From Caprella mutica (taxonomy: Eukaryota; Arthropoda; Malacostraca; Amphipoda; Caprellidae): a DNA stretch of 64,000 bases. The stretch is from NCBI GenBank assembly GCA_947561585.1, contig CANNZV010001123.1:272572-336571 (forward strand), written 5' to 3'. Of the stretch, positions 2,864-53,231 are shown in pieces. The notes beneath the pieces were generated by a model, which saw only the letters and a list, made by a program, of their open reading frames with translations, did no database searches and was not told the origin of the DNA. Positions within the stretch are counted from its first letter, which is position 1, and every line of letters begins with the position of its first letter. A program made the position numbers and the translations under genes.

Positions 2864-3018
2864 GTAATGTTCTTTTGTATCTCTTTAAGTCCTCTTCGAA
2901 GTCACAGTCAGGCAGAGTGCTGATCCACAGACCATATCTATCACCTCTGTAAACTCTCTTCACAATGTCGAGGTGTTCTTGTGACGTCACACAAGCTCTG
3001 AATTCAGTTACCTTACAC
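2864..3018 (-). CDS. Gene 1, C-terminal exon 3
   Basis: The acceptor AATTACAG precedes 3018 and the donor GTGAGT is at 2858-2863. The 155-bp exon enters in phase 2 and leaves in phase 1. It encodes CKVTEFRACVTSQEHLDIVK and about 30 further residues. This resembles the last exon of the paralogue (YKLNLVRCSLTIPEVNELKK), a strand-turn-helix pattern like an LRR unit. The next exon must lie below 2277 or outside the window. Confidence 0.7.
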
Positions 3019-6000
3019 CTGTAATTAGCAAAAGAAATGAATGTAATAATGAATAACAAGAAAATAGTTAATATACATTATCTATTTTCTACTTTTTAAT
3101 TTATCAGTCACATCTAATTAATTTAGATTTAAATTATTTACAATAATTATATTTAAATTATTTATAATAATTATATTTAAATTATTTATAATAATTATAT
3201 TTAAATTATTTATAATAATTATATTTAAATTATTTATAATAATTAGATTCAAATTATTTATAATAATTAGATTCAAATTATTTATAATAATTAGATTTAA
3301 ATTATTTATAATAATTAGATTCAAATTATTTATAATAATTAGATTTGAATTATTTATAATAATTAGATTCAAGTTATTTATAATAATTTAATTTAAATCA
3401 TTTATACTAATTTAGTTGAATCATTTAATAATAATGTGTTTAATTAATTTAATGGTAATTACTGCAGTCGTTAGAGCGTAAATAAACAGACAAATAAAAG
3501 GTAAATATTGTGTAAATTGAAGAGCAAATAGGGTAAATAATCTATCTAACATTTGTGAGTAGAGGATCTGAATGATATATAGATTCTTTACTCTATTTGC
3601 ACTTTAATTGAAAATAATGAATAAAATTTTATATCAATTGTAATATTGTTAATATATTTCATTATATCTAAAGGTATTTTTAATTCCAAACATTCTATGC
3701 AGTTATTTAAGTACAAAGCATATCAATAACATTAAAATTAACTAACTTGCTATTGTTGAGCTGTCTGAAGAATTTCCCATTCAATGGTTGGTAATAGACG
3801 TAACTATGGTCGAAATCAAGCCTAATTTCACTGTCATCTGTAAGCACTGACACCAACTGACCAACATTGACACAGTCGGTGTCTGTTAGAGACTCAGGAA
3901 AATAACACACAATCTCCACTTTATTTTCCCTCTTCTTCATTACTTCAGTCAAGGGTCTGATGTGACGAGAGTATTGTAAGTAATAGTAACTCTTGTCTCT
4001 CAGGACATCAGAGACAATTGAGACGATGACTGAGTCACAGTTTGAAGAAGAACCTAAATCAAGTAGATATTCTCTATCACCTCTAAAGTATTTCCTCAGC
4101 ACTGCAGTGAATGTTTTGGTGTATTTTGGTATCTCTCCATTTTCTGCAGTTTCAAAAATCAGAAGTTTGATGATATTACCATATCTGTGAGAATAAAATA
4201 AGTACATTATTGCCAATTGTCACTAGACAAGCAACTGATAATATTAACTAAATTTACATCTCTTTATGTGCTTCATAAATCAATTAATGTTTATTTATAG
4301 TATACTGTATAGTGTATATATTTATTAACTATGTATTTTATATAAGAGTTTTATAGGCGTGAAATTTGTTTTATAGAATATTTAAATGAGTAAAATAAAG
4401 CGAATACCAAAAATTAATTACTGTAATTAAAAAAAAATTACTATCTATCATAATAATTTCCTTCGAGTGTTTATTTATTTATTTATATATTTTGTGTTCG
4501 CTTCACAATAATGAAAATAAATGCATGGTAGTGCATGACAAGCTGTTTCACAAATACAGACTACTCGAATTTACTAAAATATTTTGAGGTGAATTGAATA
4601 ACAATTTATTCATTAATAGGGTAAGTTACGAATTATTGGACTGTTCTATAGTTTCGATCACATAGGGAAACTATACAATTTATATTTTTATCATGTAAAA
4701 TGTCACCGTGACACTCGGCAAAATATTGATATGATATTTAAATTAGTTTGTATTTATTTTAATGGGAAAGTACACTTCTAACGGGTTGAGTTACACCAAT
4801 ATTAATACTATTGAAAACCCGTCATTTTTAACGTGAAAGTACACTAGTTTGAAATAATTCATATCCGATTAGCCGTATAGTAGGATTATACCTTATAGTA
4901 GGATAATATAGTAGGATTATCCCTTATAGTAGGATAATATAGTAGGATTATACCTTATAGTAGGATAATATAGTAGGATAATACCTTATAGTAGGATAAT
5001 ATAGTAGGATTATACCTTATTGTAGGATAATATAGTAGGATTATACCTTATAGTAGGATAATATAGTAGGATAATACCTTATAGTAGGATAATATAGTAG
5101 GATTATACCTTATAGTAGGATAATATAGTAGGATTATACCTTATAGTAGGATAATATAGTAGGATTATACCTTATTGTAGGATAATATAGTAGGATTATA
5201 CTTTATAGTAGGATAATATAGTAGGATAATACCTTATAGTAGGATAATATAATAGGATTATCCCTTATAGTAGGATAATATAATAGGATTATCCCTTATA
5301 GTAGGATAATACCTTATAGTAGGATAATATAGTAGGATTATACCTTATAGTAGGATAATATAATAGGATTATACCTTATAGTAGGATAATATAGTAGGAT
5401 AATACCTTATAGTAGGATAATATAATAGGATTATACCTTATAGTAGGATAATATAATAGGATTATACCTTATAGTAGGATAATATGGTAGGATTATACCT
5501 TATAGTAGGATAATATAATAGGATTATACCTTATAGTAGGTTAAAAAGTTAAATTTCATAATAATTAAATACCCATAATTTTAATGAATGAAGAGTTTGA
5601 GGTGAAAAGACAAAGTTTTCAACTTTTCGACAAATTTGAAGTCAGTGACAATATGTTTGAGTCTCTCCTGAAATAGTTCAGTAGTTTTCTATGAGAGAAA
5701 TATTTTCTTTATTTTCTTTCTACCCCTAACTGATATATTTACAGTGGAAAAGCTCTAAACAATTATTAACATTTCAAAGTATTTTCAAGTATCAAAATTA
5801 ATGAAGTTTATCAAATAAAATATTTAAATAATGTATAACAAGTGTTGAAGATTAATAAGTAATAATTAATTGTGAAAATATACCATGGATATCAAAATAA
5901 AAATCTTTAAATTTCTCCACCAGTTGATAAGTTATTTGTGTCCGTTATAGTACTTTGACAACTGGTTTGTATGTTTCACATAGAAATAAATAAATAAAGA

Positions 6001-8450
6001 ACAATATAGAGGAACTGATCAGATTCATTATACACAATGTACCAGATGATGTCAGTCTGTCATTACAATGTACCAGATGATGTCAGTCTGTCATTACAAT
6101 GTACCAGATGATGTCAGTCTGTCCTTACAATGTACCAAATGATGTCAGTCTGTCATTACAATGTACCAGATGATGTCAGTCTGTCATTACAATGTACCAG
6201 ATGATGTCAGTCTGTCATTACAATGTACCACATGATGTCAGTCTGTCATTAATGTTACTAAAATTAAACTAATTCCCAATTAGTCCAAACTCTTTACTTT
6301 CAGGTATGAATTGCGGTTAGAATTAGACGCTTTTCTCACTTTGTTGCAATTAACATTGAGTTTTATGAACCTTTTATTAGGTTGTTTTATTTCTAGTTAG
6401 TGAATATACATAAATTTTATTAAAGCACTATCTAAATATTTAAAGAATTGTAAATGTTTGTAATGGCAGACTTTGATATGAAATAGAAAATAATTATTCA
6501 AAATATAATTACTTACCTCTCAACTTCCCTTTCAACGTCAGTGTTTTTAGTAGACACTCCAAGACATTTTAGAAAGTTCTCCCGTAGATCACTTTCTGAA
6601 AGATGCCTTGAATTCCAGTCAATGTTACGCTCTTCCATGTTCTTGATCACCTGATCTACTGCCAGAAATTCCTGAATTGTGCTGTGTGTGAAGGCGTAAG
6701 TCAAAGTTTTACCGAGTTTCAAAGAGGTCTCTGGGGTTAGGATGGACGTGAGTAACCCTCCAATGTCAACATCTCTCGGCAACTTTTGTTGGCATTTTTC
6801 GACTAAGCTTTCGTAGTGATCTTCTTCAAGGAAATATTTCTCACAATTGAAGAGCATGAGACTGTAGTAACTGAACAAGTCACAAATATATTTGATTGTT
6901 CTTTTGGGAGTCTGAACATTGCTCTCTCTCAACTTTTTCCTTATTTCTGTATAGAAGATTTCTCTTATTGCTTTGTAAGCACTTAGTTCATTGTGCAATT
7001 GAGACAAAGATGTTCTGTTATTCAAGAACAGAGAGATGAATAATGCCAATATAATTGGAGAGCAGAAAACTTTCTGTGCATCTTCATTCAGATTCTCAAA
7101 GCTCTTCACTAGTTCTTCAGAATCAACATCACCCATCTTATCACCATATCTCTTCAAGAAATTCACTTTGTCTCTCAATTCGTTGAAGGCTTCGATGAGC
7201 ATTTCATTGTAGCCCAAATTCATCTCTTTCAGTTTGCTAATGAAATTATTCCCTGCATCAACTCTGCCGGAAACAATGCATGTAGCGTCATATTTGTTGC
7301 AGAATGGTATGATTTGATCAACCAGTTTCCTGCTGTCTTCGTTGACTTCATCGTAGCCATCAATTAAGAAGACTTTGCCCTCCACTTCTTTGAATGCGTT
7401 ATAAATGACTTCTTTAGGAGAATACAGATTGGGAATATTCTCGTTCAGGAAATCACTAAGATTATTCTTTCGCTCAGTTCGGCATTCTAGGTAGATAGGT
7501 ACTCTGAATCTTCCTATGCCTTTGTAACTCCTTTCACTCCCATTAACTGAATTGTCCAAAATATTATGGTACAAGTTTCGCATGAGGGTAGTTTTGCCAG
7601 AGCCTGGACCACCATTGATCACCACGAATTTATTAGTAACGTGGTTACAAAACTCAGTGGAGCTGAAATTTTTTTCTTTCTTTCTCTGTTCATTCTTGTC
7701 TTTAACAGCCACTGATAAATTTACGGACTGAAAGATCTGGGAAGTATCTATCTTTTCCAAACTGCCTGGCAAAGGGACAGAGAATGAATCAGAATATTTC
7801 TCTAGCATGAAGGGTGCACTTTCCTTTTCTATTAATTTTGTAACATTCTTAACTGTGTTCTCATAAGAGCTTGTTGTTTCACGTACCAACTCGTCAAACT
7901 TAGCATCCAAACCTGCAACTTTAGCATCAATTTCACTCTTGTCTTTGCCGTAAAGTGTGCCAGCAGTTCTGATGCATTTTGTCATCAATGTTTTTTTGTC
8001 TTCAATTTTGGGGTCTTCTTTTGCTTTAGATTGTTCGTGGCTAACTTTATTTCTAAAGTCTTTGATCTCTTTTAGAAGATACTCGACACTATCAGTGTCT
8101 TCCATTTTCTCATTATAATCTTTTGTACCAGTTTGAGTGACTTTTTCGTAACACAGAACTGGAAGAATATCATGCAAAAAAGTTACATCAAAGCTGGAAA
8201 AGTCAGTTTCCTCCATTTTTATCAAATGCTTCTCTAACTTTTTTTCTAGTTTTATGCCAGATCTCTCTTCAATCTTCAAATTTTCAAAGTGGTCTTTGAT
8301 CGTCACTCCATCGGGTTTCTTAAAGCCCCAGTCTATTATGGTCTGATAGACAAGGGGACAACACTCAAAATTGATGCGATTATTGATCAGAAAATTCAAG
8401 TCCTCTTGAGAAAGAGATTGAAGTGAAGCCATTGTGCTCAGGAATACAAC
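2864..8450 (-). CDS. NLR-like HEPN-NACHT protein, gene 1 (partial, spliced)
   Basis: Exons are 8450-6517, 4184-3747 and 3018-2864, joined in phases 2, 2 and 1; about 842 codons are visible. Seen in sequence: a HEPN-like region with RNxxxH (R127, H132, counted from the ATG at 8432), then a NACHT ATPase with P-loop GGPGSGKTT (274-282), Walker B VFLIDGYDEV (354-363), sensor SGR (388-390), and a FTHSTIQEFLA winged-helix signature before the first intron. Known for the families: HEPN domains with RNxxxH are often RNases, and NACHT is a signalling ATPase of NLR receptors. Inferred role: a cytoplasmic-side immune or conflict receptor. The big exon opens at a phase-0 acceptor (CTCCTGCAG), so an upstream exon is missing. 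The last exon ends in phase 1, so at least one more lies at lower coordinates. The paralogue at 46563-53231 has the same intron phases. Confidence 0.8.
3118..3410. repeat. 24-bp AT-rich tandem array
   Basis: The unit is TTATTTATAATAATTAGATT plus CAAA, about 12 copies, lying in the intron between exons 2 and 3 of gene 1. Because 24 is a multiple of three, the minus strand stays open as an NLIIINN-type repeat; I take that as an artefact of unit length. Confidence 0.9.
3747..4184 (-). CDS. Gene 1, C-terminal exon 2
   Basis: The acceptor CTCACAG precedes 4184 and the donor GTTAGT is at 3741-3746. The exon is 438 bp and phase 2 on both sides, so it completes an arginine codon after the NACHT exon. 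The product begins YGNIIKLLIFE and is homologous to the YWNILRFVTLQ exon at 48561-48950 of the paralogue, with the same flanking phases. No named domain is recognised; alternating strand and helix periods could be a degenerate LRR-type or other repeat scaffold. Confidence 0.75.
4873..5540. repeat. 31-bp tandem array, about 21 copies
   Basis: The unit is CCTTATAGTAGGATAATATA plus GTAGGATTATA. Each unit is itself built from TAGTAGGAT-type half repeats, so the array probably grew from a shorter motif. It is intronic in gene 1. Confidence 0.95.
6033..6252. repeat. 31-bp tandem array, 7 copies
   Basis: The unit is ACAATGTACCAGATGATGTC plus AGTCTGTCATT, almost perfectly conserved over seven copies, so it is a young array. 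It is intronic in gene 1. Confidence 0.95.
6517..8450 (-). CDS. Gene 1, HEPN-NACHT exon
   Basis: This is a single 1934-bp open exon. The 3' boundary is the donor GTAAGT at 6511-6516 and the 5' boundary is an acceptor CTCCTGCAG at 8451. Six codons precede the first ATG (8432) in frame, so the ATG may be internal rather than the true start. The paralogous exon starts at the same phase, after a transmembrane exon. The region between the HEPN and NACHT parts (residues about 140-260) is lysine- and glutamate-rich and probably helical. Confidence 0.88.
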
Positions 8451-8734
8451 CTGCAGGAGAGAAAAATAAGAATGAGTGAATGTTGCAAATAACGTACTGA
8501 GGTCTAGAGGGAGGAATCCATTTAACGCTATCTGAGGTGTTTTTAATATAACAGTCAGTACTAAAGTACATCAAAAGAATGAAGTTTAAATGACATGTAT
8601 GAAAAAATGGGGCGTTTAGAATTATTGAAATACAATAATTCTTAACTTGAATAACCAACCATCTACTTAACCGATTTAGACAAACTTGTTCTGAATCGAC
8701 TCCAAATTCTTAGGGGTTTTATTTGGTTATTAAA

Positions 8735-9753
8735 AAAAGTGTACTGGAAAAAACAGTAACTGAAAGTGTACTGGAAAAAACAGCAACTGAAAGTGTACTG
8801 GAAAAAACAGTAACTGAAAGTGTACTGGAAAAAACAGTAACTGAAAGTGTACTGGAAAAAACAGCAACTGAAAGTGTACTGGAAAAAACAGCAACTGAAA
8901 GTGTACTGGAAAAAACAGCAACTGAAAGTGTACTGGAAAAAACAGTAACTGAAAATGTACTGGAAAAAACAGCAACTGAAAGTGTACTGGAAAAAACAGT
9001 AACTGAAAGTGTACTGGAAAAAACAGTAACTGAAAGTGTACTGGAAAAAACAGTAACTGAAAATGTACTGGAAAAAACAGCAACTGAAAGTGTACTGGAA
9101 AAAACAGTAACTGAAAGTGTACTGGAAAAAACAGTAACTGAAAGTGTACTGGAAAAAACAGTAACTGAAAGTGTACTGAAAAAAACAGTAACTGAAAGTG
9201 TACTGGAAAAAACAGTAACTGAAAGTGTACTGGAAAAAACAGTAACTGAAAGTGTACTGGAAAAAACAGTAACTGAAAGTGTACTGGAAAAAACAGTAAC
9301 TGAAAGTGTACTGGAAAAAACAGTAACTGAAAGTGTACTAGAAAAAACAGTAACTGAAAGTGTACTGGAAAAAACAGTAACTGAAAGTGTACTGGAAAAA
9401 ACAGTAACTGAAAGTGTACTGGAAAAAACAGTAACTGAAAGTGTACTGGAAAAAACAGTAACTGAAAGTGTACTGGAAAAAACAGTAACTGAAAGTGTAC
9501 TGGAAAAAACAGTAACTGAAAGTGTACTGGAAAAAACAGTAACTGAAAGTGTACTGGAAAAAACAGTAACTGAAAGTGTACTGGAAAAAACAGTAACTGA
9601 AAGTGTACTAGAAAAAACAGTAACTGAAAGTGTACTGGAAAAAACAGTAACTGAAAGTGTACTGGAAAAAACAGTAACTGAAAGTGTACTGGAAAAAACA
9701 GTAACTGAAAGTGTACTGGAAAAAACAGTAACTGAAAGTGTACTGGAAAAAAG
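8735..9753. repeat. 27-bp tandem array, about 37 copies
   Basis: The unit is ACTGAAAGTGTACTGGAAAA plus AACAGTA. As 27 is divisible by three, the plus strand is open for 380 codons (a nine-residue VLEKTVTES repeat from 8723) and the minus strand for 117 codons. There is no upstream gene context or signal peptide, so I treat it as satellite. It lies just upstream of the NACHT exon of gene 1, probably in its first intron. Confidence 0.92.
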
Positions 9754-9836
9754 TAAAATATCCTTTTACTTTGGGTATAACTATTTCCTATTATTTGTGG
9801 AATTCACTAATATTAGTAAATTTCATCTTAAATATT

Positions 9837-9964
9837 TCATCGAATGTTTAAAGTATAGTCCATAGGTGTAGATCTCGCTACACCTCCAATTTCAGGAGCT
9901 TTTCTGACAGATAAACCTTTTTGGAATTCATCAAATGTTTTTTGAATATCTTCTTTAAAAGACA
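9837..9964 (-). CDS. Candidate exon of unknown identity
   Basis: After a possible acceptor (AATAATAG before 9964) the minus strand encodes about 41 residues with normal, non-repetitive composition (SFKEDIQKTFDEFQKGLSVR and following) and ends at TGA 9837-9839. I do not recognise the protein. It sits upstream of gene 1 on the same strand, but the stop codon means it cannot simply splice into the HEPN-NACHT exon without an internal donor. It may instead be a retroelement remnant. Confidence 0.3.
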
Positions 9965-10794
9965 CTATTATTAAAAGTTGCAACTAATCTTATAAACTAA
10001 TGCTATGTCAATTAAAATAATTAACTTATAGTTGATAATGTACTTTTTAATAAGAATTACTTTAATAAATTGTAATTATGGACTGAATCGGATACAGAGG
10101 GAAGGTTCGGACCCAACATCAACAGAAGTGTCTGATTCATCCCAAATGACACTTCAAAATTAAAATCATCACAATTTTTCTAATTTCATTTGTATTATTT
10201 TTTTAAAATACCAAACATAACATAAAATATTGATATAATTCATACCTTTGAGATTGATTGAGAAAACATAATTTCTGTCACCTGACAGTTATTCTAGTTT
10301 ATTTTTCCATTAAAAATAACGGGTCTCCAATATTAATATACTGCCTGTTATATAAATTAATTTTTGTGAATTCAATTACCATTCATTTTTGCATAAACTG
10401 ATACTATATTTTATAGATAAAATACATATAAAAACAGAACAAAACGTAAGAATTTAAATTTCAATTACAATATATTCCCGAGCGTATCATGGTTACATTC
10501 TTCATGTTTAATACCCTTTGAGTAAAAGTGGATACCAAATAAATAAATAAACAGACGACGGAAATTATTAGTGTAGATTTTCTTTTTTGTATAAAACATA
10601 AGGCAGGGTCGGTGTGAGATTCATTGGCAGAGTCTGTGCTAAATAAATTGATGTGAAAAATTACAGAAAACTAGATACAGTGAAGAAGACTATTCTAATT
10701 TCCTATAAATAAATTTAATTGAAAAAAAAATGATATTTATTATAATTGAAACAAAATATGTTTCTAAATGTGTTATGAAGGGGTTTATACATTT
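9965..10794. other. No gene recognised
   Basis: This is AT-rich non-coding sequence. A short TCAGGTGACAGAAATT phrase near 10275 (seen on the minus strand) recurs near 37747, so it belongs to a dispersed repeat. Confidence 0.5.
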
Positions 10795-11340
10795 AGTCCA
10801 GGATACAGTAACATAGGGTATGGTAATCAGCTGATCAAATCTAGTTTGACGTGCCCACCGGATGACTGGAAATGGCGACTCTGACCACACTTTGAAACAT
10901 GGGAAAACCTACTTAAACTTAGTCATTTCTAAATATTATTTTATTCTTATCAATTACTAACTAAGCATTGGTTAAATTGTATTTCCATTATTTTGACCTT
11001 ATTTGTTATTCATAAGAACTACAATTTAGCAGTTAACTAGCACTAGTTTAGCCTCCTAGGTATAACATATGTTCCAGACACAATTTTTAACCGATAAGTT
11101 AAAGAAATGAACAATAAAAACACACCTGAATTAGATCTATTTATTCAACTTTGAGGTTCAATCGCCATTTTCGCTTTTCTTTTTCACGAAACCCTTATAA
11201 AATGACTTTAAACTTCTCGATATTAACATGCAAATACGAGGAATTATGAGCCGCTCGGTCACAAACAAGGAATGTGTTGTTGTGGTGACGTCATATTTCT
11301 GTGTCGTCTACTAGGTACTATACCTGTTTATGTTCCTGTA
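10795..11340 (+). repeat. Dispersed repeat, copy 1 of an inverted pair
   Basis: About 545 bp match 45855-46400 in reverse orientation. Shared landmarks include GGTATGGTAATCAGCTGATC, a TCAAAGTGTGG block, a GAATTATGAGCCGCTCGGTC block and a TGACGTCAT site. No coding sequence is recognised. It is likely a copy of an unnamed transposable element. Confidence 0.8.
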
Positions 11341-11430
11341 CATTGATTTAGTCTAGTGTGAGCCAGGTTTCCATTAGTCTTTTCCTCTTTGATAATCACA
11401 AGTTAGTGTTTTGAGACTCTCAAACTTTCC

Positions 11431-12361: not shown

Positions 12362-12448
12362 AGTATGTATGAATTTTGCTAGATTTTTGTTATTCTTGAG
12401 TAGCGTCGTTCTGTACCGAGGTGAAGTGGGGGAATTCATATCAGAAGA

Positions 12449-25668: not shown

Positions 25669-25743
25669 ATGATTGCTTTAAAATTTCTCAGTGAATTAGG
25701 CAGAAAGAAGATTGTAACTCTGCTTGTTATGCAGCTTCTCCTG
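25669..25743 (+). CDS. Lectin-like gene, exon 1 (signal peptide)
   Basis: Begins at ATG 25669 and ends at a strong donor CTG/GTAAGT in phase 0; 25 residues with a hydrophobic C-terminal half. The frame is open upstream to 25543, so the 5' limit and start are uncertain. It is joined to 32887 because the phase fits and because the downstream exons lack a start with a signal peptide. Confidence 0.5.
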
Positions 25744-37700: not shown

Positions 37701-40428
37701 AGTATTGTTATCATTCCTCCTTGTAAAATTTACACTAGAATAACTGTCAGGTGACAGAAATTGTATTTTGAATAACGTCAATAGCTCTTATAACATCAAT
37801 AGCTCTTACAACATCAATAGCTCTTATAACATCAATAGCTCTTATAACATCAATAGCTCTTATAACATCAATAGCTTTTATAACATCAATAGCTCTTATA
37901 ACATCAATAGCTCTTATAACATCAATAGCTCTTATAACATCAATAGCTCTTATAACATCAATAGCTCTTATAACATCAACAGCTCTTATAACATCAATAG
38001 CTCTTATAACATCAATAGCTCTTATAACATCAATAGCTCTTACAACATCAATAACTCTTATAACATCAATAGCTCTTATAACATCAATAGCTCTTATAAC
38101 ATCAATAGCTCTTATAACATCAGAAGTATGAATCTGGGCTTAATATATACGGTACTTATGACCGAGAACTCTAACTTTATTGCAATAATATTTATTCTTT
38201 TCTAGATGTTAATGTGTTCACACGTAATCTGACCTGTAACTCCTATGTTGTCACACAACAAGTTGATGACGAAGCTATCAACACTATTGTCGGTGAGAAT
38301 CTTATAATATTGTAATGATCTTCAAATATTTAATTACAATTATAATATTTGACGATATAAATAATTGAGCGTTGAATGACACCCTACACTGAGAAAAATA
38401 AACAACTCCAACTGATGCACTCAGGTGCTTCGACTTCACCCTATGGCTTTGTCTCTAAAGCGAGACACTTTAGTGCATCAAACTATAGTTTGGATGCACT
38501 AAAGTGCATCAGTTCCTTACACTTTAGTGTCTTAACTATAAGTTTGTTAAAATGATGAGACAATTAATCTCATCATTCTAGCAAAGGAAAATTTGAGACA
38601 CTAAAGTGCATCGAACTGATGCACTTTAGTGCTTCCAAACTATTGTTTGATGCACTAAAGTGTCTTGCTTTGGAGACAAAGCAATAGGGTGTATATGTGA
38701 TAATAGAGTGTATATGTGATAATGAAGCTACTTAACCCTTAATAATTGTGCACTTTATTTACAACTATTGGTGGTTATTTTAACCCTTTACTGTGCACTT
38801 TATTTACAACTATTGGTGGTTGTTTTAACCCTTCACTGTGCACTTTATTTACAACTATTGGTGGTTGTTTTAACCCTTTACTGTGCAGTTCTTTAACAAT
38901 TATTTTGAACGATGGTTGTTTTTACACCAAAATGATTTAATAGAATCTTACCCATGCGAAAATAGGAGCAGGTTCGAGGCAGCGGTTGAGATGATCGGGG
39001 TCTCAACTGCACAGAACTACTCTGGCCATCTGCACCTATTTGCCTAGCGCGCTGCCTAACTGCGGATGGGCGGCCCCTAGCCACGACTGTAATATTGTAT
39101 TACTATTATAGCAGATTTTGCTAATGGCCGCGTATCCACAGTTAGACAGCGCGCTATGGCAAATAGGAGCAGATGCCCAGAGTAGTTCTTCGCATTTATA
39201 CCGAGGTAGAATTAGTCCCCAAAGCGGTCAGTTTACCTCCCACGTTGCGCTCTCGCTGCTTCCTGGCTGACGTGGTGACTACTCCGATCGGCTTAACCGC
39301 TGCCTCGAACCTGTTCTTATTTTCAATGTGGTAGAAATGAAATTTTTGAATATATGTATAAATTACTGTATAAATTTTTTAATGTTCTCTGATGATGTGA
39401 AATGAACTCTTAGGCCCGCTTCACACTTGCGTTTTCAAACAGTGCGTTAAAAAAAGCTCTTCTCAAAATGTGTTTAAAACTTTTCTCTTTAGCGCTTAAA
39501 TAACGCAAGTGTGAACACATTTCAACATGACGTTTTTTTTAAAGCAGCGTTAAAAAAGCAAGTCAAGTGTGAAGCAGACCTTAAGGATGTAATTATTATT
39601 TGTTTATAATAATGCACGTATGTACGATATTTTGCTTCACAAGTTAACTAGTAATCAATTACAGTCGATGACGCAGTTGGAGAGTGTAAATCGAAACTAT
39701 TACACTTTGCGTCATTTAGTTCAGAGTACATCTTCTTCGCCCCTGACTATAAAATTCCTATGAAAAACATCGCTGCTGAGTGTCAAAAGTTTGGAGCCAC
39801 GGCTTGTGCGCCAGAACAAGACAAAGATATTACTGCATTCGCGGAGGACCTTAAAAGTACGTTATTATCTTAATTTAAACTTGTAAAATTTTAACCAGTC
39901 TAAAATTATCTGTAAAGATTAGTTTCAGAGTATGTTTGAACGATCATTTTCACTCAATACGTGTGGTTCATATAACTAAATTAGTGTGGTTCACACCACT
40001 CAGACGTGCGGTTCACACCACTCAGTCGTGCGTTTCACACCACTTATTTCGTGTGGTTCACACCACACGAGGTCTTTGGATTATTCTGAGCAATGAAATT
40101 GTTAGATGTGACACTAATTTGGTAAAATATTCTACCTAATTTACTGGAGAGTGACTCTAATATTCATTTTCTTCAAGATTTTACCATTGCTTCTGCTTTT
40201 AATGGAAACTATATCACTGTCGGACTATCTTCTAACGATAGTGGTGGAACCTTCTTCTGGACTACCGGAGTCAGCCAACCTACGACACCCGAGGGGCAAA
40301 ATGGATGGGGAGATGAAGAACCTTATATTAATCCTGAATGTGTTCAAATGACTTCGTGGGGACTAGCTACTTCGTATTGCAGTTATACCAAATACTTTTG
40401 TTGTTCACTTCCGTACTTTGCGGAGTGA
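25669..40428 (+). CDS. Secreted C-type lectin-like protein (7 exons)
   Basis: Exons: 25669-25743, 32887-32928, 33215-33413, 33642-33758, 38206-38292, 39665-39856, 40178-40428. All junctions are GT-AG and all phases agree; the total is 963 bp, 320 residues plus stop. The N-terminus (KKIVTLLVMQLLL) looks like a signal peptide. Residues about 40-145 form a cysteine-containing region (IPCDTCAEIVC; DGQCKVS; DPCN) I cannot name. Residues about 180-320 look like a C-type lectin fold: FFAPDYKIPMKNIAAECQKF at its start, ITVGLSSNDSGGTFFWTTG corresponding to WIGLxD..G.W.W, and CVQMTS...YCSYTKYFCC at the end. The usual EPN is EPY and WND is not clear, so calcium and sugar binding may be lost. Inferred role: extracellular recognition. 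The first exon is the least certain because its intron is 7.1 kb. Confidence 0.75.
25744..26385. other. Intron 1 of the lectin-like gene, left part
   Basis: AT-rich and non-coding. Nothing recognised. Confidence 0.5.
26386..26500. repeat. 16-bp micro-repeat array
   Basis: About seven copies of ACATTTGACCGAACGA, preceded by TGCCGGAATTCTGCCGACAG. It resembles one arm of the micro-repeat inverted elements found elsewhere in this window, but no opposite arm was found nearby. Confidence 0.75.
26501..27054. other. No gene recognised
   Basis: AT-rich intronic sequence of the lectin-like gene; no array or exon. Confidence 0.4.
27055..28080. mobile_element. Large foldback (arms about 410 bp) with a central MITE
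   Basis: 27055-27470 and 27672-28080 are inverted copies. Shared blocks include AAATACTTGTAAATCGTTA, TGATGGACATAGT, GTGATTTTACTTACTAAAAG and CTTACACTTCTTCC. The inner TACAGGGT / ACCCTGTA blocks (27352 and 27788) suggest an older nested Tc1/mariner-like pair within the arms. The centre is occupied by a separate MITE. Confidence 0.75.
27473..27669. mobile_element. Harbinger-like MITE, copy 1
   Basis: It starts AGGCCCGCTTCACACTTGC and ends with the inverted GCAAGTGTGAAATGGGCTCC, with TTA flanking both ends (27470-27472 and 27670-27672). A 3-bp TTA duplication fits PIF/Harbinger. The second copy is at 39413-39580. Confidence 0.75.
28081..29046. other. No gene recognised
   Basis: AT-rich; contains a run of C at about 28390-28407 and a T run at 28855-28870. 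Nothing coding is seen. Confidence 0.5.
29047..29253 (-). CDS. Small open frame of unknown function
   Basis: The 68-codon frame begins MGQSQSNYNIDAIVELLKNA, has a glycine at position 2 as in N-myristoylated proteins, and ends with a hydrophobic segment (VGVIVLFIYGFGM). Downstream on the same strand a shifted frame reads RTLQNRISAEAFKILYRS. It could be a relic of a retroelement or virus-derived gene, or chance. I cannot assign it. Confidence 0.25.
   Translation of the reverse strand: MGQSQSNYNIDAIVELLKNANTVTKQNYRTAIEAAKTPHFDLVSDAFSDMRLAVGVIVLFIYGFGMAE
29430..29659 (+). pseudogene. Ty3/Gypsy integrase, N-terminal part of a split copy
   Basis: The frame at 29442-29655 contains PSPSRTWQRIHVDHFFVG and FIVIDSLTKYIEVEIV, the first catalytic D region (W.RIHVDF) and the iDa.SKW.E motif of Gypsy integrases. 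It stops where another element is inserted. The rest of the same integrase resumes at 30798. Confidence 0.75.
29660..30797. mobile_element. Inverted-repeat element B, inserted in the integrase
   Basis: The left end (GTTTGCCCGG, then GGATTTTCCGAAAACAAAT and repeated CCGAAAA-CAAATT motifs to about 29890) is inverted at the right end (about 30645-30797, TTCGGAAAATTTG motifs ending CCGGTTTGGCC). AACG flanks both sides (29656-29659 and 30798-30801). The integrase reading frame continues on the far side when one AACG is counted. About 750 bp of AT-rich core without coding sequence. Confidence 0.75.
30798..31335 (+). pseudogene. Ty3/Gypsy integrase, C-terminal part of the split copy
   Basis: It resumes with LLSDSF (second catalytic D; the usual SDNG is altered), then SNGQAER containing the catalytic E, followed after a frameshift (near 30945) by KLAKVLLQYRSVPHSAN and a C-terminal WVDANI...YNVQVYDLHSIWRRHSNQLL segment, the W-G-Y-V...RH.NQL tail of Gypsy integrases. 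Frameshifts and a stop near 31157 show it is dead. Confidence 0.75.
31336..31733. other. No gene recognised
   Basis: AT-rich region between the integrase relic and element C; it may include the remains of the Gypsy 3' end, but no LTR pair was found. Confidence 0.4.
31734..32452. mobile_element. Inverted-repeat element C with micro-repeat ends
   Basis: The left end carries CGGAAAACTCCCAG, GAAAATTCCAAGTG, AAAAAACTCTCAGAG; the right end has the inverted CACTGGGAGTTTT motif four times. Flanks are GTTATAAA (31726-31733) and GTTATAGA (32453-32460), an 8-bp duplication with one mismatch. AT-rich core, no coding sequence. Confidence 0.8.
32498..32697. mobile_element. Solo end of a Tc1/mariner-like element
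   Basis: GTGCGCAAGCATACTTTTG at 32498 and TTGACCCACCCTG before TA at 32697 match the sub-terminal and terminal sequence of the transposon at 59757-60800 (GTGCGCAAGCATATTTTTGG; CAGGGTGTCCC). No transposase here. Confidence 0.5.
32887..32928 (+). CDS. Lectin-like gene, exon 2
   Basis: This 42-bp phase-0 exon lies between a T-rich acceptor (TTTTTTTCAG) and donor GTGAGA, encoding THDVVTMKGLAMEE. Confidence 0.65.
33215..33413 (+). CDS. Lectin-like gene, exon 3
   Basis: The acceptor ends at 33214 (ATGTCAG) and the donor is CTG/GTAAGT; phase 0 in, phase 1 out. It encodes VVIAEIPCDTCAEIVCTIAT and about 46 more residues ending NSTG. Confidence 0.78.
33642..33758 (+). CDS. Lectin-like gene, exon 4
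   Basis: The acceptor TTTCAACAG precedes the exon and the donor is GTAGTG; phase 1 in and out. It encodes SKMFLFDDGQCKVSPLVFEK and further residues with two cysteines. Confidence 0.75.
33834..34650. mobile_element. 817-bp element with TTAA duplication (piggyBac-like, non-autonomous)
   Basis: It begins GGGGGGCGTTTCA and ends TGAAACGCCCCCCC, flanked by TTAA on each side (33830-33833 and 34651-34654). TTAA target sites are characteristic of piggyBac. No transposase frame is seen; part of the core (33960-34070) is GC-richer. It lies in intron 4 of the lectin-like gene. Confidence 0.75.
35144..36373. mobile_element. Inverted-repeat element D with micro-repeat ends
   Basis: The left arm has repeated GGAAAATTCCACCA-type motifs (35160-35245); the right arm has the inverted TGGTGGAATTTTCC motifs (36250-36365). 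The perfect 8-bp direct repeat GGACAGTG flanks it (35136-35143 and 36374-36381). The AT-rich core of about 1 kb has no coding sequence. Intronic in the lectin-like gene. Confidence 0.82.
36382..37399. other. No gene recognised
   Basis: AT-rich intronic sequence of the lectin-like gene. Confidence 0.5.
37420..37625 (+). repeat. Half copy of the 58945-59640 foldback element
   Basis: Shares ATAAGATACACTACTCTCG, GCGTGACGTCAT and ACATTATGAAAACTGTTTAT with the left arm of the foldback at 58945-59640. Confidence 0.8.
37776..38126. repeat. 18-bp tandem array, about 20 copies
   Basis: The unit is ATCAATAGCTCTTATAAC. Because 18 is divisible by three the plus strand is open (an SSYNIN repeat); I take this as an artefact. 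It lies 80 bp before exon 5 of the lectin-like gene. Confidence 0.95.
38206..38292 (+). CDS. Lectin-like gene, exon 5
   Basis: The acceptor TTTTCTAG precedes the exon and the donor is GTGAGA; phase 1 in and out. It encodes VNVFTRNLTCNSYVVTQQVD and following. The preceding intron (33759-38205) hosts two transposons and an 18-bp satellite. Confidence 0.72.
38430..38692. mobile_element. Long hairpin MITE
   Basis: CACCCTATGGCTTTGTCTC is inverted at the right end (GAGACAAAGCAATAGGGTG). In between, GCACTAAAGTGCATC and its inverse repeat several times, and the centre AATGATGAGA...TCTCATCATT is itself palindromic, so nearly the whole 263 bp can fold into one hairpin. No coding sequence. Confidence 0.75.
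38740..38890. repeat. 45-bp tandem array, about 3.3 copies
   Basis: The unit is CTGTGCACTTTATTTACAAC plus TATTGGTGGTTGTTTTAACCCTTTA. Confidence 0.9.
38952..39333. mobile_element. GC-rich inverted-repeat element
   Basis: It starts GAAAATAGGAGCAGGTTCGA and ends with the matching inverse (TCGAACCTGTTCTTATTTTC). Further inverted blocks are GGCAGCGGTT / AACCGCTGCC and GCGCGCTGCCTAACTGCGGAT / ATCCACAGTTAGACAGCGCGC-like. It is far richer in G+C than its surroundings. No coding frame; no clear target duplication. Confidence 0.65.
39413..39580. mobile_element. Harbinger-like MITE, copy 2
   Basis: GGCCCGCTTCACACTTGCG at the left and CAAGTGTGAAGCAGACC at the right, flanked by TTA (39410-39412 and 39581-39583). 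Same family as 27473-27669. It lies 85 bp before exon 6 of the lectin-like gene. Confidence 0.75.
39665..39856 (+). CDS. Lectin-like gene, exon 6 (start of lectin-like domain)
   Basis: The acceptor AATTACAG precedes the exon and the donor is GTACGT; phase 1 in and out. It carries the first lectin-domain cysteines (GECKSK, AAECQKF, TACAPEQ). Confidence 0.8.
39955..40078. repeat. 22-bp tandem array, about 5 copies
   Basis: The unit is GTGTGGTTCACACCACTCAG plus TC, itself palindromic (GTGTGGT / ACCACAC). It lies in the last intron of the lectin-like gene. Confidence 0.85.
40178..40428 (+). CDS. Lectin-like gene, last exon
   Basis: The acceptor TTCTTCAAG precedes the exon; the frame runs to TGA 40426-40428. 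It carries the GL...W core, the EEPY segment and the final cysteines (NPEC, SYCSY, YFCC). It ends SLPYFAE. Confidence 0.8.
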
Positions 40429-44445: not shown

Positions 44446-44719
44446 TCCAAAGAGGTGGATGGACAACATCTTAGAGTTATTGGTCAACAAACCTAGTTGA
44501 CCCGTTTAGTCAGTCTGTCATTTCCTTAAAAGTAGAACAATTAATGATTTGTATCTCAAGTAGATATACCGGATAACATTACGTGTGAAAACTAATTACA
44601 AAAGTTGATTATTTGGTATTAACTAATATTCAATTATTCATACCTTTGGTCTTTGAAGTTGGTTCTGTTTAGGAAGAAAAAATCGGGCGTGACAAAGAAC
44701 TTTACAACTTTTCAGTGTA

Positions 44720-45545: not shown

Positions 45546-45854
45546 AGTTTCATTTCAGTGCTTTCAATTTTTTAAACTCTTTTTCTTGGATGGATTTTCC
45601 CTTAAATGAAAAATTAATGAAATTAGAGCAAAAAATATTGAACAAGATTTTCAATGAAGCAATCTAATATTTTTTCATTGTATCCTTACATTTTTATATG
45701 AAGAGAATAGCCAATTTCTCCTCCATCCCTAAAAACATAGGAAAAATTTCATGTCTTATTTCAATTCAATCTACTTCAAATTTACGAATATTCCAAGCAA
45801 ACATTAAAGAAGCATATCAATGTAAATCTAGACTTCATGATATGGTAGACGTAC

Positions 45855-46400
45855 TCAGGGTACAAGAACATAACGGGTATAGTACCTATTATACGACACA
45901 AAAATATGACGTCACCAAAACAACACATTTCTTGTTTGTGACCGAGCGGCTCATAATTCCTCGTATTTCCATGTTAATTTCGAGAACTTTTAAGTCATTT
46001 TATAAGGGGTTCGAGAAATGAAAATGGCGATTGAACCGCAAAGTTGAATAAATAGATATAATTCAGGTGTGTTTTTATTGTTCATTCTTTTACTTATCTA
46101 TGAAAAAATAGGGTCTTCAACATATGCTACCTAGGAGCCTAAACTAGTGCTAGTTAACTGCTAAATTGTAGTTCCTATGAATAATAATTAAGGAATGAAA
46201 TGATGGAAATACAATTTAACCAATGCCTAGTTAGGTATTGGTAAGAAAAAAATTTAATTTAGAATTGACTAAGTTTAAGTAGGCTTTCCCATGTTTCAAA
46301 GTGTGGTCAGAATAGCGATTTCCAGTCACCCGATGGTCACGTCAAACTAGAGTCGATGAGTTGATTACCATACCCGATATGTTACTGCATCCTGGACGTA
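45855..46400 (-). repeat. Dispersed repeat, copy 2 (inverted relative to 10795-11340)
   Basis: Matches 10795-11340 in reverse orientation, including the TGACGTCA site and the CCGAGCGGCTCATAATTCC block. It abuts the 3' side of NLR-like gene 2. Confidence 0.8.
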
Positions 46401-46416
46401 CTGAACGTCTAAACCT

Positions 46417-46422
46417 TTTAAT
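46417..46422 (-). promoter_or_regulatory. Possible poly(A) signal ATTAAA for gene 2
   Basis: On the minus strand ATTAAA lies about 140 bp downstream of the stop at 46563. Variant signal in AT-rich sequence, so weak. Confidence 0.25.
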
Positions 46423-46562
46423 GATTAGACGTCACTTCAAAGTCTGTTGTCAGTACAACATACAAGTAGTTTTAATTATGATTTAGATGATGTCATCGTC
46501 TAGAAGTTAAATAGTATAATCGAGATTGTTTGCTGGGATAATTTCTTCAGTTTTCCTATTTC

Positions 46563-46689
46563 TCACTTCCATCTCACTGCTCTAGTAACGAAGGAATGCG
46601 TTCGAATATCTTCCACTAACAACATCTTCTTCAGTTCATTCACTTCAGGAATAGTCAGTGAACACCTTACCAAGTTTAACTTGTAAAAC
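46563..46689 (-). CDS. Gene 2, proposed last exon (LRR-like)
   Basis: The acceptor TCTATCTACAG precedes 46689; phase 2 in; frame runs to TGA 46563-46565. Encodes FYKLNLVRCSLTIPEVNELK and about 22 more residues, similar to exon 3 of gene 1 (CKVTEFRACVTSQEHLDIVK). A GTGAGA just before the stop could be another donor, so further exons are possible. Confidence 0.5.
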
Positions 46690-49600
46690 CTGTAGATAGA
46701 GAGTTAGTATCTGTTTGAAATCAATAATGACATTGTGGCAATATCTCCTACTTTCTTGCATCGACTGGAAGCAGACTTTTGATCATCCTGAAGACATTTT
46801 CTTGGTGTCCTTTGGGCACGTCCACCACTCTCAAAGATGGCGCTATTCCGCCACTATCTTTAGGTAGAGGGAAGTATTGATCTTCACCAGAAGAGTCATT
46901 GTAAGGTACTGTGATGGCTGTACATGAAATAATATTAATAATAATAACTAAAGTAGTCAACTGTTGAAAAGAAATATTGGATGGGCAATTTACAAAAATG
47001 TATAGCACTCAAATCTATATATTTCTCGATTCAATCAATGCAAGATAAAAAGATTCATTAAATAATATATAAGCAAGATTATTTAGTATTTGTTATTGCA
47101 AAATAGTTTACATAACGCACCTATAGTTACTTTAGATAGTTATTCGTTAATAAATAACTCTTTAATATTGCAAATAATTTGAAAGGTTACATAGCGCAAA
47201 AGAGTACACCATTCCTGTAGCCTCAAATTACATTATAGAATAAGAATTCTTATCAGGGAAAAATCTTTTGAAATTTTAGTGGTATCGATAAATTTTTCTA
47301 AGACAATACTACCAATCAGCAATCGTATAACAAGAAACATAATACAGATCTTACAACATCTCTTGATGGTAAATTCCTAGTTAACGACAGCCTTCTATAC
47401 CAGCTTCCTAATCACCGACAGCCTTCTATACCAGCTTCCTATAATTAACGACATCCTTCAATACCAGCTTCCTAGTTAACGACAGCCTTCTATACCAGCT
47501 TCCTAGTTAACGACAGCCTTCTATACCAGCTTCCTAGTTAACGACAGCCTTCTATACCAGCTTCCTAGTTAACGACAGCCTTCTATACCAGCTTCCTAGT
47601 TAACGACAGCCTGCTATACCAGTTTCCTTGTTAACGACAGCCTTTTATAATAGCTTCCTTGTTAACGACAGCCTTTTATACTAGCTTCCTAGTTAACGAA
47701 AGCCTTTTATACTAGCTTCCTAGTTAACGACAGCCTTTTATAATAGCTTCCTAGTAAACAACATCCCTCCATACATTATTAAAACTTTTGTAGTTAAAAA
47801 CAGCATTCTATACACTGTTTATATATATAATATTTATCATTGAATAGAGGGTTGTCTTCAACTTGGAAGCTGGCAAATTACCAGATTCCTAGATATTGCT
47901 AGGGATGTCATTATTCATTAAAGTTATTACTCCTTGAAGATCATTTTTCTGATTCTAAAGCACAGACAACACTAACGGGGAATTTTCTGATCTGCACTTC
48001 ACTTCTGAAGTTAATTGCCTGATAATTTTGTACCAAAAATCTAAGACACTTACTAACTGTTGCGTCCACACCATCTAAATATAAAAGTTTGTGACTTTTG
48101 AACGAGGAAATGCTGATGAAGATGGACGGTCTCTCTACTTTCGGGTTCGTCCGTTCAGAAGGTTTTTTATTTCCTATTTTGTGTTTTAGAACCGAAATAC
48201 TCAGTTGTGAATCGATGCATCCTTTGAAGTAAGGAATAAAAACACTGCAATAGGAAAGAAATCATTAGTTTAATTGTTTATAATCTAGTATATGCAATTG
48301 GATCACTTGTGTCAAACGAGACGTTTTGTATGTGAAACTGAACTCATTTGGGTAACAGCTTTCAAATCTGATTTAAGTTAAGTGAAGCTATAGAAGTCCA
48401 TAAGCTAAAGGTAGTAATTGAAGTATTAGATCCATTCAGTTTTTAATAACTTTTTATTGTTAATTTTATATTATTTTTCCAAATCAGACAACGATGACGT
48501 CACAAATACAAAACAACTCGATGTCTACACATTTTGAATACAGTGGTTCACTTCACTAACTTCACGTTCTTCAATTCCTTGAAGATGTCATCACTCAAAG
48601 GTTTCATCTCATCATGACTCTCATGCATGTCAATTCGAAGGGATTTATAAAAAGCATCTGTGTTTTTACTCTTGATATACTTTTTCGTTTTCTGCATCAG
48701 ACTCAAGTGTTTGGTTAGTGTTGCCAACTCTCTTTCTTCGTCGATAAATAACAACATTTCTGAATCAATTACTGGGCAAAGTATAGTCATGACTGCTTCG
48801 TTGTAGTTGGAATCAGCGATCAAAGCGTCACAGTTGTGAAAATTGGGACGAACTTTAGTCTTCATTATCGTATTCAAAACAGAGGATATCTTGCTGAAGC
48901 TACCGTCTGATATTAACTGAAGAGTTACAAACCGTAAAATGTTCCAATACCTGAGGAATAGTAAAGGAATATTATTTGGCAAATCTCTTGACTTAACCAG
49001 CTCTTGATTTAAACTCAATGAACATTCTGACTGAAAAATTTGCTTTAAAACACAGAGATGGGATATTATTGTATTAGACAACACCAAAGTAAACGAATAC
49101 AGACAAAGTGAATGCACATAGATTTTAAGGAAACCATTTGGTGTGAGATAACAAAACGTCTTAATAAATGGTAAAACTTATTGATAGGTTTAGGAATTAT
49201 GAACTGCTATATCCTTAAACTGCAAATTAATATAAATTAGAACATCGCTTTATACTCACATTTCTTGTCCATTAGCAATCGGAATGACTCCATTAAAATG
49301 TTTTCCGATAACCCTTAAAAAGATCGAAAAAAATTATTCTATTTTCAGATATTAATTTTACAAAATATCAGCATGCATGATTAAATTTATTGTATTAATA
49401 GGGAGAATCCTAAATTTCAAGAGTCAATTTCTATTATAAAAATTGGCAGAAAAGTTTTTGATAAGAATACAAGGTTCGTTTATTTGTAATATTCACTTGG
49501 CTCTAATATATTTCAACCAACCACCACCTGAAAACTACCAGATAGACGGATTGTTATCAGCCTCTTCTTAGATTTACAACCATCAGATGGTTGATTTACA

Positions 49601-52600
49601 ACCAACCTGATGGTTTAATTTCAAATTTTACAAATTTATCCTCGTGTACTCATATAAAATATAGACAATCATTATATTTAGTAAATTTTATATCTGTAAA
49701 TGTTAAATTTGTAAACAATCAAGAATTACTACTGATACACTTTCCTTTTACTGTATATGGAACATGGCTGTATGCTCCTCTAGATTTCAAGAAACCCTCT
49801 CCATATTTACTAAAGTAATTTTTTTTTTGTTTAAAATCTCAAAATTCAGTCATAGGTACCTTTCTAGCTGAAAATCCGTGTCCTCGCAATTACTCAAGTG
49901 GAGTGCCTCCAGAAAGTCAGTCATTGAGTATTCCTGGTCAGATTTCCTTTCCATGACACTCTCTATAATCTTACATGCTACAAAGTATTCCTGGATGGTA
50001 GTGTGATGAAAGTGGAAGGTTTTCAGTGTCCCCGTACACTCAGGAGACAGCACACCAGTGAGAATGCTTTCGACACTAAAACTCTCATCGGAAAGCATTT
50101 TGCAATCTCTCATCAAGTGCACGTAATCGTTATTGGCAAAAAAGTATTTGTTTTTATTGCAAAGTTTGACACTGTGCTGACAAATCACTCTCATGATTTT
50201 CTTCGCTAATGGTCCCACTTCTGAAATGCATTGGGATTTAAGTTTCTCTTCGATCATATCTTGGAAATATTTATAGAGATTCCTATTTAATTACCGTATC
50301 TGCCGCATCTCTTTTGACAAAGGAGTAGAATAGGGCGAGCAGAACAGGCGATGAAAAAATAACATTTACATTTCCTGGTAATTCTCTGAAAGTACTTACA
50401 ATTTTCTCCCTGTCGGTTTCAGATAGTTTACATGCGAATTTCCGTAAGAATGTTAGCCTCGTATCATTATATTTAATTTTTTGAATTTCAAAGTAATCGT
50501 GAGCTATAGATCTGTTTTTGAGAATGATGTCACTGAGAGCCAAGATGGCCTTTCCTCGACCTGATATGATGCAAGAAGCTGTAGGTTTTACCTCACATAA
50601 ATCTATCACTGAATGGATGAGCTCTCTTGATCTGTCGTTAACTTCATCATAACCATCTATAATGAAAAGCAAATCATCAGTCAATCGAATTGCGTCCATA
50701 ATTTCTTCCTTGGAGAACCTACCAAGAATCGTTCTGAACTGAGATATCACAAATTCTCCCAAATGTGAATAACTATCACTCCTACAAGAGATAAATGTCA
50801 CCAATTTGAACTCTCTCATATTTCTGTACCTTGATGGTCCGCATAGAATGTCATAGAACAAAGATTTCATAAAGGTTGTTTTTCCAGAACCTGGATCTCC
50901 AAGAACTAATACGATTTTCTCTGTTATTTGGTCAAATATGTTGGAGCTGTCGAAGCTGACAGCGTAACCTTTTTTTGTTCGACACCGTAAGTCGATATTT
51001 ACGTACGCATCATCACAATCGATGTAAGTATCCGATCCTGGAATGTATATAAAGAATTGCTTGTGTTTCTCCTTCAAAATTTTGTAACAATTAGGAATCA
51101 TATAATCCCGAATGAATTTCACTTTGGAATTGTGGTCAGTGATGGTGTCTTCAATAATGCTGAGAAATTCTTCGTCTATCTTTGATTTAATGTTATTCAC
51201 ATTAACTATATTACATATGATGCAAGCTTTTTCTATGCAGGCATGTATAGCCTTTTGCAAATCTGTGATGAAGATTGGGTCCAAACCAACTGAAAAATTC
51301 TTGAAGAATACATTCCTTATGTCTTTCACAACTTTCAATAAAGATTCCATGCTTTGGGGATTATTTAACCTCTCTTTATACTCCACAGTCCCCATTTGGG
51401 ATATTTGTTCATACCAAACAATGGATAGCAGCTGGTGCAGAAAAGTAACATCTAAATTATCCAGATTCACCTGGTCAAGTTGAGACTGGTTCTCTTTCAC
51501 CCAATCGGTTAAATCTTCTCTTCCTTTCGGTGTTTGATTGTTAAGGAAGTTCGAAAGATGGAATAGGTCCTTGGATTGAATGTACTTGAGAATGGTTTGT
51601 CTGGTCCCTTTTCTCCAAACTAGGTTGATAATTGTTTTGTAGAGTAACGGTGCGCAGGTGTGGCAGGCTACGTAACTTCTGTACAGGTAAGTATGCTCGT
51701 CTGACAAAGATTCGATCGGCAGTGGGTTTTGGGCCGGTTCCGTCAGATCATTTGAAAACTTTACCTGTCGTATAGAACAATATGTTTTATCATCTTTCCT
51801 GTTTATTTTATTCAGTAGGACTAATCATATCCTTCAGAATTAAATGTGATATCACTGACGTGAAAACAGAGAGCAGTTACAAGGGACTGAAAAGTGTATC
51901 CGGTAAATTCATCCCAGAAAATTCATCATATGGTAAATTTATCGGATGGTAAATTCATTGCATGGTGAATTCATCGCATGGTGAATTCATCGCATGGTGA
52001 ATTCATCGCATGGTAAATTCATCGAATGGTAAATTCATCGCATCGTACATTTTAAAACTAAATTGATAAACTTAAATAAACTCTTTGCAAATATTAGTCG
52101 CAACCTTACTTTACTTTTCGCTGTATTAAAGTAACTTGTTTTGTACGAATCTGTGCTGTTAGATTACTTTATATGATTCAAATTTTAATAATAAATTTCA
52201 AATAATTTTCATATGTACCTATATTGTATATCATACAATTACTACAAAATCTAAAAATATTCAACAAGTGAGAAACTGCATTTATTTATAATTATATAAA
52301 AAAATCTAATTTAATTTTTTTATTATCTCTTAAAATTACGTATTTGTTTAGCTACTCATAGTGTGACAACAACATAACTGTAAATGCTCTGCAAAGCGTA
52401 ATATGATCAGCAAAGCGTAATTGCGCCAGTAAACGAGAACCAAGTTTCTGATTATTTAAGAGATATTGCTTACAATAATTTCATCTTTTTAGAAAGTAAT
52501 TTTGATATATTTTTTTGCAATTGTAACGATAGAATCGACATGTGATATGTATTTCTAATATTAACGGTTTGCTTTAGCAACATATCCATATATTATTTGT

Positions 52601-53231
52601 AGCGTTATAATGTCTTTTTAAAACACATCTTATACTTTTGTACCTAACTATTATTTATAATATGTACCTTTTTATTTATATTTACCGATGATTTACCATA
52701 CGTTGAAATATCCCAGCGATGAATTTACCATCAATAAATCATGCGTCGCATTATTTACACTGATCCACAAAAAGAAACAGAAGGATATAAATGGTACTCC
52801 ATGAAAATGTTTTTCTACCACCGTATACCTGTGACGGTACTCGTGAACACAGGAAAGATAATCAGTGAAAACAGTCGGTTTTAACGAAATATACAAGTAC
52901 TTCCATGACAAGTACCTACCGGTGATTGCACTCACGCTTGGAAGAGGGAAATGAAGAGGTGATAATAAATAAAGCCTATGAGTCTACCATACATAAAATC
53001 TTAGAACTCGTAGTTGAACAGCATCCTCTAAAACTACAAATAGCGTAAAAATTACAATAGTTTGTTCGACAGTTGAATATTGTAAGACAACTAATTTAAT
53101 TTCCATCTGTACTCTACCTGTTTCTTTTTTTGTGTCCAAATTAGAAGGAACAGAAAGTTGACCAGTGTGAGGGCCAGTACACTTGCTACCACCAAATTAT
53201 CAGTCGTTAACTCATTCAAGGAGAAAGACAT
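46563..53231 (-). CDS. Membrane-anchored HEPN-NACHT NLR-like protein, gene 2
   Basis: Exons: 53231-53118 (transmembrane), 51764-49860 (HEPN-like and NACHT), 48950-48561, 48244-48054, 46917-46752, 46689-46563. Phases agree at every junction except for one extra base inside the large exon near 50283; allowing for it the product is about 963 residues. Seen: an N-terminal hydrophobic helix followed by QKKKQ; a HEPN-like segment with RNVFFK where gene 1 has RNKVSH; P-loop GDPGSGKTT (50874-50900), Walker B LLFIIDGYDEV, sensor SGR, and FHHTTIQEYFVA. The C-terminal exons contain a strand-helix pattern resembling LRR units (YKLNLVRCSLTIPEVNELKK). Family knowledge: NACHT proteins oligomerise on ligand sensing. 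Inferred: a membrane-tethered receptor whose HEPN part is probably no longer an active RNase. The frameshift means it is a young pseudogene or a sequencing error. Confidence 0.78.
46752..46917 (-). CDS. Gene 2, C-terminal exon 5
   Basis: The acceptor CATGTACAG precedes 46917; phase 1 in. Encodes ITVPYNDSSGEDQYFPLPKD and following to LLPVDARK. The proposed donor GTAGGA is weak; without it the frame stops at TAG 46748-46750 and the protein would end here. Confidence 0.6.
47365..47770. repeat. 31-bp tandem array, about 13 copies
   Basis: The unit is AGTTAACGACAGCCTTCTAT plus ACCAGCTTCCT. It lies in the intron between exons 4 and 5 of gene 2. Confidence 0.93.
48054..48244 (-). CDS. Gene 2, C-terminal exon 4
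   Basis: The acceptor TATTGCAG precedes 48244 and the donor GTAAGT is at 48048-48053; phase 2 in, phase 1 out, as in exon 3 of gene 1. Encodes VFIPYFKGCIDSQLSISVLK and following to LLYLDGVDATV. No named domain. Confidence 0.68.
48561..48950 (-). CDS. Gene 2, C-terminal exon 3
   Basis: The acceptor TTCCTCAG precedes 48950 and the donor GTTAGT is at 48555-48560; 390 bp, phase 2 in and out. Starts YWNILRFVTLQLISDGSFSK, homologous to the YGNIIKLLIFE exon of gene 1. Confidence 0.75.
49860..51764 (-). CDS. Gene 2, HEPN-like/NACHT exon with a frameshift
   Basis: The acceptor CGACAG precedes 51764 and the donor GTACCT is at 49854-49859. The frame from 51764 is open to a stop near 50283. From there the homologous sequence continues one frame over (NRNLYKYFQDMIEEK onward, aligning with KAIREIFYTEIRKKL of gene 1). 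Exon length is 1905 where 1904 would keep phase, so exactly one surplus base explains both. No ATG opens the long frame, which fits an internal exon. Confidence 0.82.
51900..52735. mobile_element. Inverted-repeat element E with micro-repeat ends
   Basis: The left arm (51900-52055) is an array of GGTAAATTCATCGCAT-type motifs; the right arm (52684-52735) has the inverted ATGAATTTACC and GATGATTTACC. AT-rich core of about 620 bp without coding sequence. It sits in intron 1 of gene 2. Ends and target duplication not resolved. Confidence 0.7.
53118..53231 (-). CDS. Gene 2, exon 1 with signal-anchor helix
   Basis: ATG at 53231; 38 codons ending at the donor CAG/GTAGAG, phase 0. The product has about 12 polar residues, a hydrophobic stretch (NLVVASVLALTLVNFLFLLI) and then WTQKKKQ. 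The positive residues after the helix predict N-terminus outside and the NACHT part in the cytoplasm. Assigned to gene 2 by strand, position and phase match to the next acceptor at 51765. Confidence 0.65.

Follow-up and report, generated by a model that had tools for sequence, protein, structure and literature searches.

Paired NACHT receptor-like genes that share an ancestral exon structure and a probable diverged HEPN domain, one copy lacking the motif histidine

The fusion of a HEPN domain to a NACHT ATPase was already listed in 2013 (PMC3710099), and later papers report 17 to 83 proteins with a DZIP3-like HEPN domain joined to NACHT in anthozoan cnidarians (PMC8260672) and >50 such proteins in the pearl oyster (PMC9646362). 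In the open-licence literature, no description of insect HEPN-NACHT genes was found in titles or abstracts among the matches listed. Here we describe two genes on the minus strand of a 64,000-nucleotide stretch of contig CANNZV010001123.1 (the window). These genes, called gene 1 and gene 2, lie about 40 kb apart, and each encodes a NACHT ATPase preceded by a helical N-terminal domain. Because HEPN-NACHT fusions have been published for cnidarians and bivalves, the architecture is not new. The reading that we favor, with confidence a little better than even, is that gene 1 encodes an intracellular NLR/STAND-type immune receptor that would cut RNA upon NACHT assembly, that gene 2 is likely a paralogue that has decayed or lacks cutting activity, and that the N-terminal domain is likely a diverged HEPN ribonuclease (RNase).

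The large exon of gene 1 (exon A, 6517-8450, minus strand as for all exons below, phase 0 to 2) is intact and encodes 644 residues. It was delimited from its open frame, its splice sites, the Pfam NACHT match and the structural model, and it holds the N-terminal domain, the NACHT ATPase and a further helical region. The open frame around it has 685 codons (6513-8570) and that of gene 2 has 513 codons (50283-51824); among 60 dinucleotide shuffles of the window, the longest stop-to-stop frame reached 166 codons (median 122). The initial annotation of this DNA had proposed a HEPN-like domain and a NACHT ATPase in both genes, to be checked by Pfam search and structure prediction. The NACHT part of this proposal stands. 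Pfam NACHT matches gene 1 (E 2.4e-10, 41 bits) and gene 2 (E 2.7e-13, 50.5 bits) above its cut-off of 26.7 bits, and the NACHT ATPase, together with the helical domains downstream, has an NLR-like fold in the structural model. Walker A (G-x-P-G-S-G-K) and Walker B (I-D-G-Y-D-E) motifs are invariant in all four sequences compared, namely gene 1, gene 2 and two database proteins, P0001 and P0002. By sequence and model, both genes belong to the NACHT clade of STAND ATPases and are NLR-like. Sequence searches of the PDB yielded matches of the NACHT-region and ATPase types, none of them to HEPN.

The C-terminal exons encode 197 modeled residues in gene 1 and ∼290 in gene 2 without a recognized repeat. 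No Pfam repeat was found in either tail at E values up to 10, and the tails may be incomplete. A leucine-rich repeat (LRR)-like pattern occurs zero times in gene 1 and once in gene 2, a count that was reached in 34% of 2000 shuffles.

Of the 7991 candidates scored in a search of ∼5.8 billion proteins with spliced gene 1, two had E values up to 0.001: P0001 (E 2.0e-56, 28% identity to gene 1) and P0002 (E 3.0e-51, 27% identity). An alignment search recovered eight proteins at E up to 0.01, which were P0001, P0002 and six further proteins whose matches span 2-50% of the query, three of these six being from frogs. A third search, made with residues 345-480 of a consensus-filled query, found no match with E up to 10 among its 330 candidates. 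Because these searches require shared five-residue words, missing relatives are weak evidence. Pattern searches for bacterial and viral relatives gave 17 and 217 hits in genome_contigs and 161 in viral_contigs, and these were set aside, as none was confirmed by tblastn.

The four sequences differ at one motif of the N-terminal domain. Gene 1 carries R-N-K-V-S-H, the predicted HEPN catalytic motif, at 8037-8054 (minus strand; residues 133-138 of exon A), and R-N-x3-H is invariant in gene 1, P0001 and P0002, with a column permutation frequency of 0.00035. The aligned counterpart in gene 2 (51300-51317, minus strand) is R-N-V-F-F-K, from which the histidine is absent, such that an Rx4-6H motif is present in three of the four. 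The polar residue after the motif arginine is N in every one.

The two genes share more than their domains. Their large exons are homologous: identical residues occupy 131 of the 462 positions aligned (28%, 190 bits). Exon B of gene 1 (3747-4184) and exon B of gene 2 (48561-48950), both phase 2 to 2 and both placed by splice sites and mutual homology, align with a score of 77, which is 9.0 standard deviations above 1000 shuffles, none of them reaching it. Exon C (2864-3018 in gene 1 and 48054-48244 in gene 2, both phase 2 to 1) was placed by splice sites and a short significant match between the copies; its alignment score of 35 lies 4.2 standard deviations above shuffles and was reached in two of 1000. 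The remaining six of the eight tested exon pairings gave no significant match. Both genes have a phase-0 acceptor before the large exon (before 8450 in gene 1 and 51764 in gene 2) and a phase-2 donor after the ER codons (6517 and 49860), and the internal splice sites of both are AG/GT. The initial annotation had claimed these phases, and from them a common origin; splice-site reading bears the phases out, and the homology of exons B and C goes beyond a phase match. Since the exons are homologous and their order and phases are the same, the sequences support the view that gene 1 and gene 2 are duplicates of one ancestral spliced gene. No third copy was found in the window outside the two genes (tblastn, no significant match at E up to 5).

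In gene 1, reading through the phase-2 donor AG/GTAA as AGG TAA makes the frame stop after EVER. The last residues are TDLER in P0001 and NKMHR in P0002; judged from the proteins, these ends are likely the same donor read-through, and the intron after exon A is therefore likely conserved.

The outermost exons are weakly supported, by frame and splice sites. Gene 1 has a possible last exon with a stop codon at 896-951 (frame and acceptor, no homologue), for which an alternative acceptor at 1126 is also possible. Gene 2 extends to 46563, past what had been described earlier, through exon D (46752-46917, phase 1 to 2; frame and splice sites) and exon E (46563-46689, ending in TGA; frame and acceptor), neither of which has a gene 1 homologue. 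Upstream, a possible first exon of 38 residues with a hydrophobic stretch (exon N, 53118-53231) is suggested by frame and donor.

No single open frame covers exon A of gene 2 (49860-51764), which encodes the N-terminal domain and NACHT. Two overlapping frames, 51764-50286 and 50290-49860, are needed to read it, and the break falls within about 50283-50293 (minus strand), where the first frame meets a TAG at 50283-50285. Homology is found on both sides of it, and the match to P0001 resumes at 50272. The break may reflect a pseudogene, an assembly error or an unusual intron. Whichever applies, the missing histidine points to a copy that does not cut RNA, and from its sequence gene 2 is likely a paralogue that has decayed or lost cutting activity. 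The earlier view of both genes as equivalent HEPN effectors is not borne out, given the missing histidine and the interrupted frame of gene 2.

It is possible, if doubtful, that gene 2 is instead a live, membrane-anchored NLR partner whose non-cutting HEPN domain gates gene 1, with the break explained by faulty assembly or a short intron. Both halves of exon A and five further exons can still be read, their splice phases match, the two Walker motifs are kept, and the hydrophobic exon N lies upstream. Moreover, 28 enumerated GT-AG introns would keep the frame. However, the shortest of these, at 49 bases, would delete residues for which relatives have aligned counterparts, and the acceptor of this intron is poor and without a pyrimidine tract; an intron in place of the break, while possible, was not adopted. 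Further points against a live partner are that the break has no long homopolymer and that exons N, D and E are without homologues. Exon N has a peak 19-residue hydropathy of 2.74. A chance filter for membrane-anchor exons left one candidate in the window, at 25669 (plus strand), and not the gene 2 exon, whose donor is unfit for the filter. Because the filter was not passed, the case for an anchor stays weak, and gene 2 may possibly start with a membrane-anchor exon.

The HEPN part of the initial proposal is likely rather than proven. In a model of the N-terminal domain built from the four sequences, helices span residues 83-93, 116-132 and 143-160, and the motif, at 127-132, closes helix 116-132. 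This modeled helix-end position agrees with that given for published HEPN domains (PMC3710099), the helix numbering relative to that text being our own assignment. An acidic residue, often within Ex3[KR], is expected in helix 2 of HEPN domains; here D82 (domain numbering), next to helix 83-93, does not vary, and no Ex3[KR] is invariant. The HEPN label is based on the motif, on its place in this model and on weak profile matches. PADLOC gave weak matches only, including PD-T4-5 to the N-terminal domain (E 0.015). Against the label, no Pfam HEPN family matched either gene, including HEPN_DZIP3 (PF18738), at E up to 1 and up to 10; the initial annotation had named a missing profile match as grounds for refutation, and for HEPN this check came out negative. 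A fold search among solved structures gave only a best-ranked match within the noise range, which speaks neither for nor against HEPN. As the PF18738 profile was not recovered, the domain is not assigned to that family. On sequence and model together, we regard the N-terminal domain as a likely diverged HEPN.

The lack of a Pfam HEPN match and the indecisive fold search would also fit if the domain were a helical adaptor or RNA-binding domain with no working HEPN RNase, signaling through recruited partners as CARD or death-domain NLRs do. That gene 2 keeps the domain without the histidine points in the same direction. We nevertheless consider this explanation unlikely, since R-N-x3-H is kept across sequences whose identity to gene 1 over the exon is only 27-28%, and it stands at the structural place described for HEPN domains. 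Far less probable is that both genes are functionless relics: the interrupted frame of gene 2 and the uncertain last exon of gene 1 would fit, but gene 1 has an intact 644-residue exon, far longer than any frame in the 60 shuffles, and keeps Walker A, Walker B and R-N-x3-H.

If gene 1 is an RNA-cutting receptor, as we favor, its C-terminal exons would form a sensing or autoinhibitory part. By analogy with NLRs, sensing of a ligand by these exons may release the NACHT domain, and the released domain would oligomerize, which would place HEPN domains side by side. As HEPN RNases are commonly active in dimeric form, this proximity would lead, as the final step, to cleavage of RNA. A role in RNA-cleaving immunity is what the domains and the published analogues would suggest. 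Such a protein would combine an immune-type receptor and an RNA-cutting effector in one molecule, with the effector in a form missed by Pfam HEPN profiles, and if the host is an arthropod, similar domains may have escaped recognition. The motif offers a direct mutational test, for which gene 2 is a natural histidine-minus comparison. A bolder version, to which we give little credence, is that the pair represents a HEPN-NLR lineage unseen by profile libraries, with gene 1 as the RNA-cutting receptor and gene 2 as a membrane-anchored, dead-HEPN gate; in an arthropod host, this would supply an effector domain that arthropod NLRs reportedly lack.

Two other observations concern the genes themselves. 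Across codon boundaries of the large exon of gene 1 (6519-8450), 22 CpG dinucleotides are found, compared with 41.4 expected (standard deviation 4.2), and none of 2000 synonymous-codon shuffles gave a count as low. For exon A of gene 2, the first piece has 19 compared with 28.9 (P 0.006) and the second has 6 compared with 7.3 (P 0.33). This depletion, stronger in gene 1, would fit germline gene-body methylation. Separately, a ∼550-base interspersed repeat is present upstream of gene 1 (10796-11341) and, in the opposite orientation and 87% identical, just downstream of gene 2 (45860-46397).

Between the two genes, an open frame at 40126-40425 (plus strand) matches positions 29-106 of the 107 in Pfam Lectin_C (E 4e-05, 24.7 bits, cut-off 22.6), and probably represents the final exon of a gene for a C-type lectin. 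Tandem Repeats Finder masked 17,076 of the 64,000 bases, much of this being minisatellites with units of ∼16-47 bases; the 43-base unit of 53412-54158 is found again at 56378-58542 with ∼95-98% identity. A SATase_N match of a 383-codon frame at 8714-9862 (plus strand; 38.9 bits, cut-off 21, five stretches) was rejected as a repeat artefact because the frame overlies a 27-base tandem array (8736-9752, 37.7 copies). At 63320-64000 (plus strand), two frames of 133 and 147 codons overlap; the first weakly resembles DASH_Dad4 (20.7 bits, cut-off 29.8) and the second has no match. Rfam gave no matches, and no telomere-type repeat is present in the window.

Compared with known systems, both genes differ from the bacterial NACHT defence proteins Avs4 and EruA: they score far under the curated EruA cut-off of 1000 bits and are spliced. 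Vertebrate NLRs such as NLRC4, NLRP3 and NOD2 also differ, in that the N-terminal domain here is, by its model, likely HEPN, with no CARD, PYD or death-domain match in Pfam, and no LRR array was found. LvNLRC of Litopenaeus vannamei (PMC12370184), compared by its published description only, is another NACHT receptor from an invertebrate, and the authors assigned no function to its ∼350 N-terminal residues. The 1485 residues of LvNLRC include a C-terminal LRR array, whereas no LRR was found in the present genes. Close counterparts are known from cnidarians and the pearl oyster, whose DZIP3/hRUL138-like HEPN-NACHT proteins (PMC8260672, PMC9646362, PMC3710099) likewise have a helical N-terminal domain with R-N-x3-H followed by NACHT. 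In contrast to those proteins, the genes described here are undetected by PF18738, have no recognized LRR in their tails, and include one copy without the histidine. Among the motif forms reported in the pearl oyster, Rx4H with an N following the R is the most frequent, and gene 1 has this form. What would be new is the sequence lineage undetected by PF18738 and, if it is an arthropod, the host.
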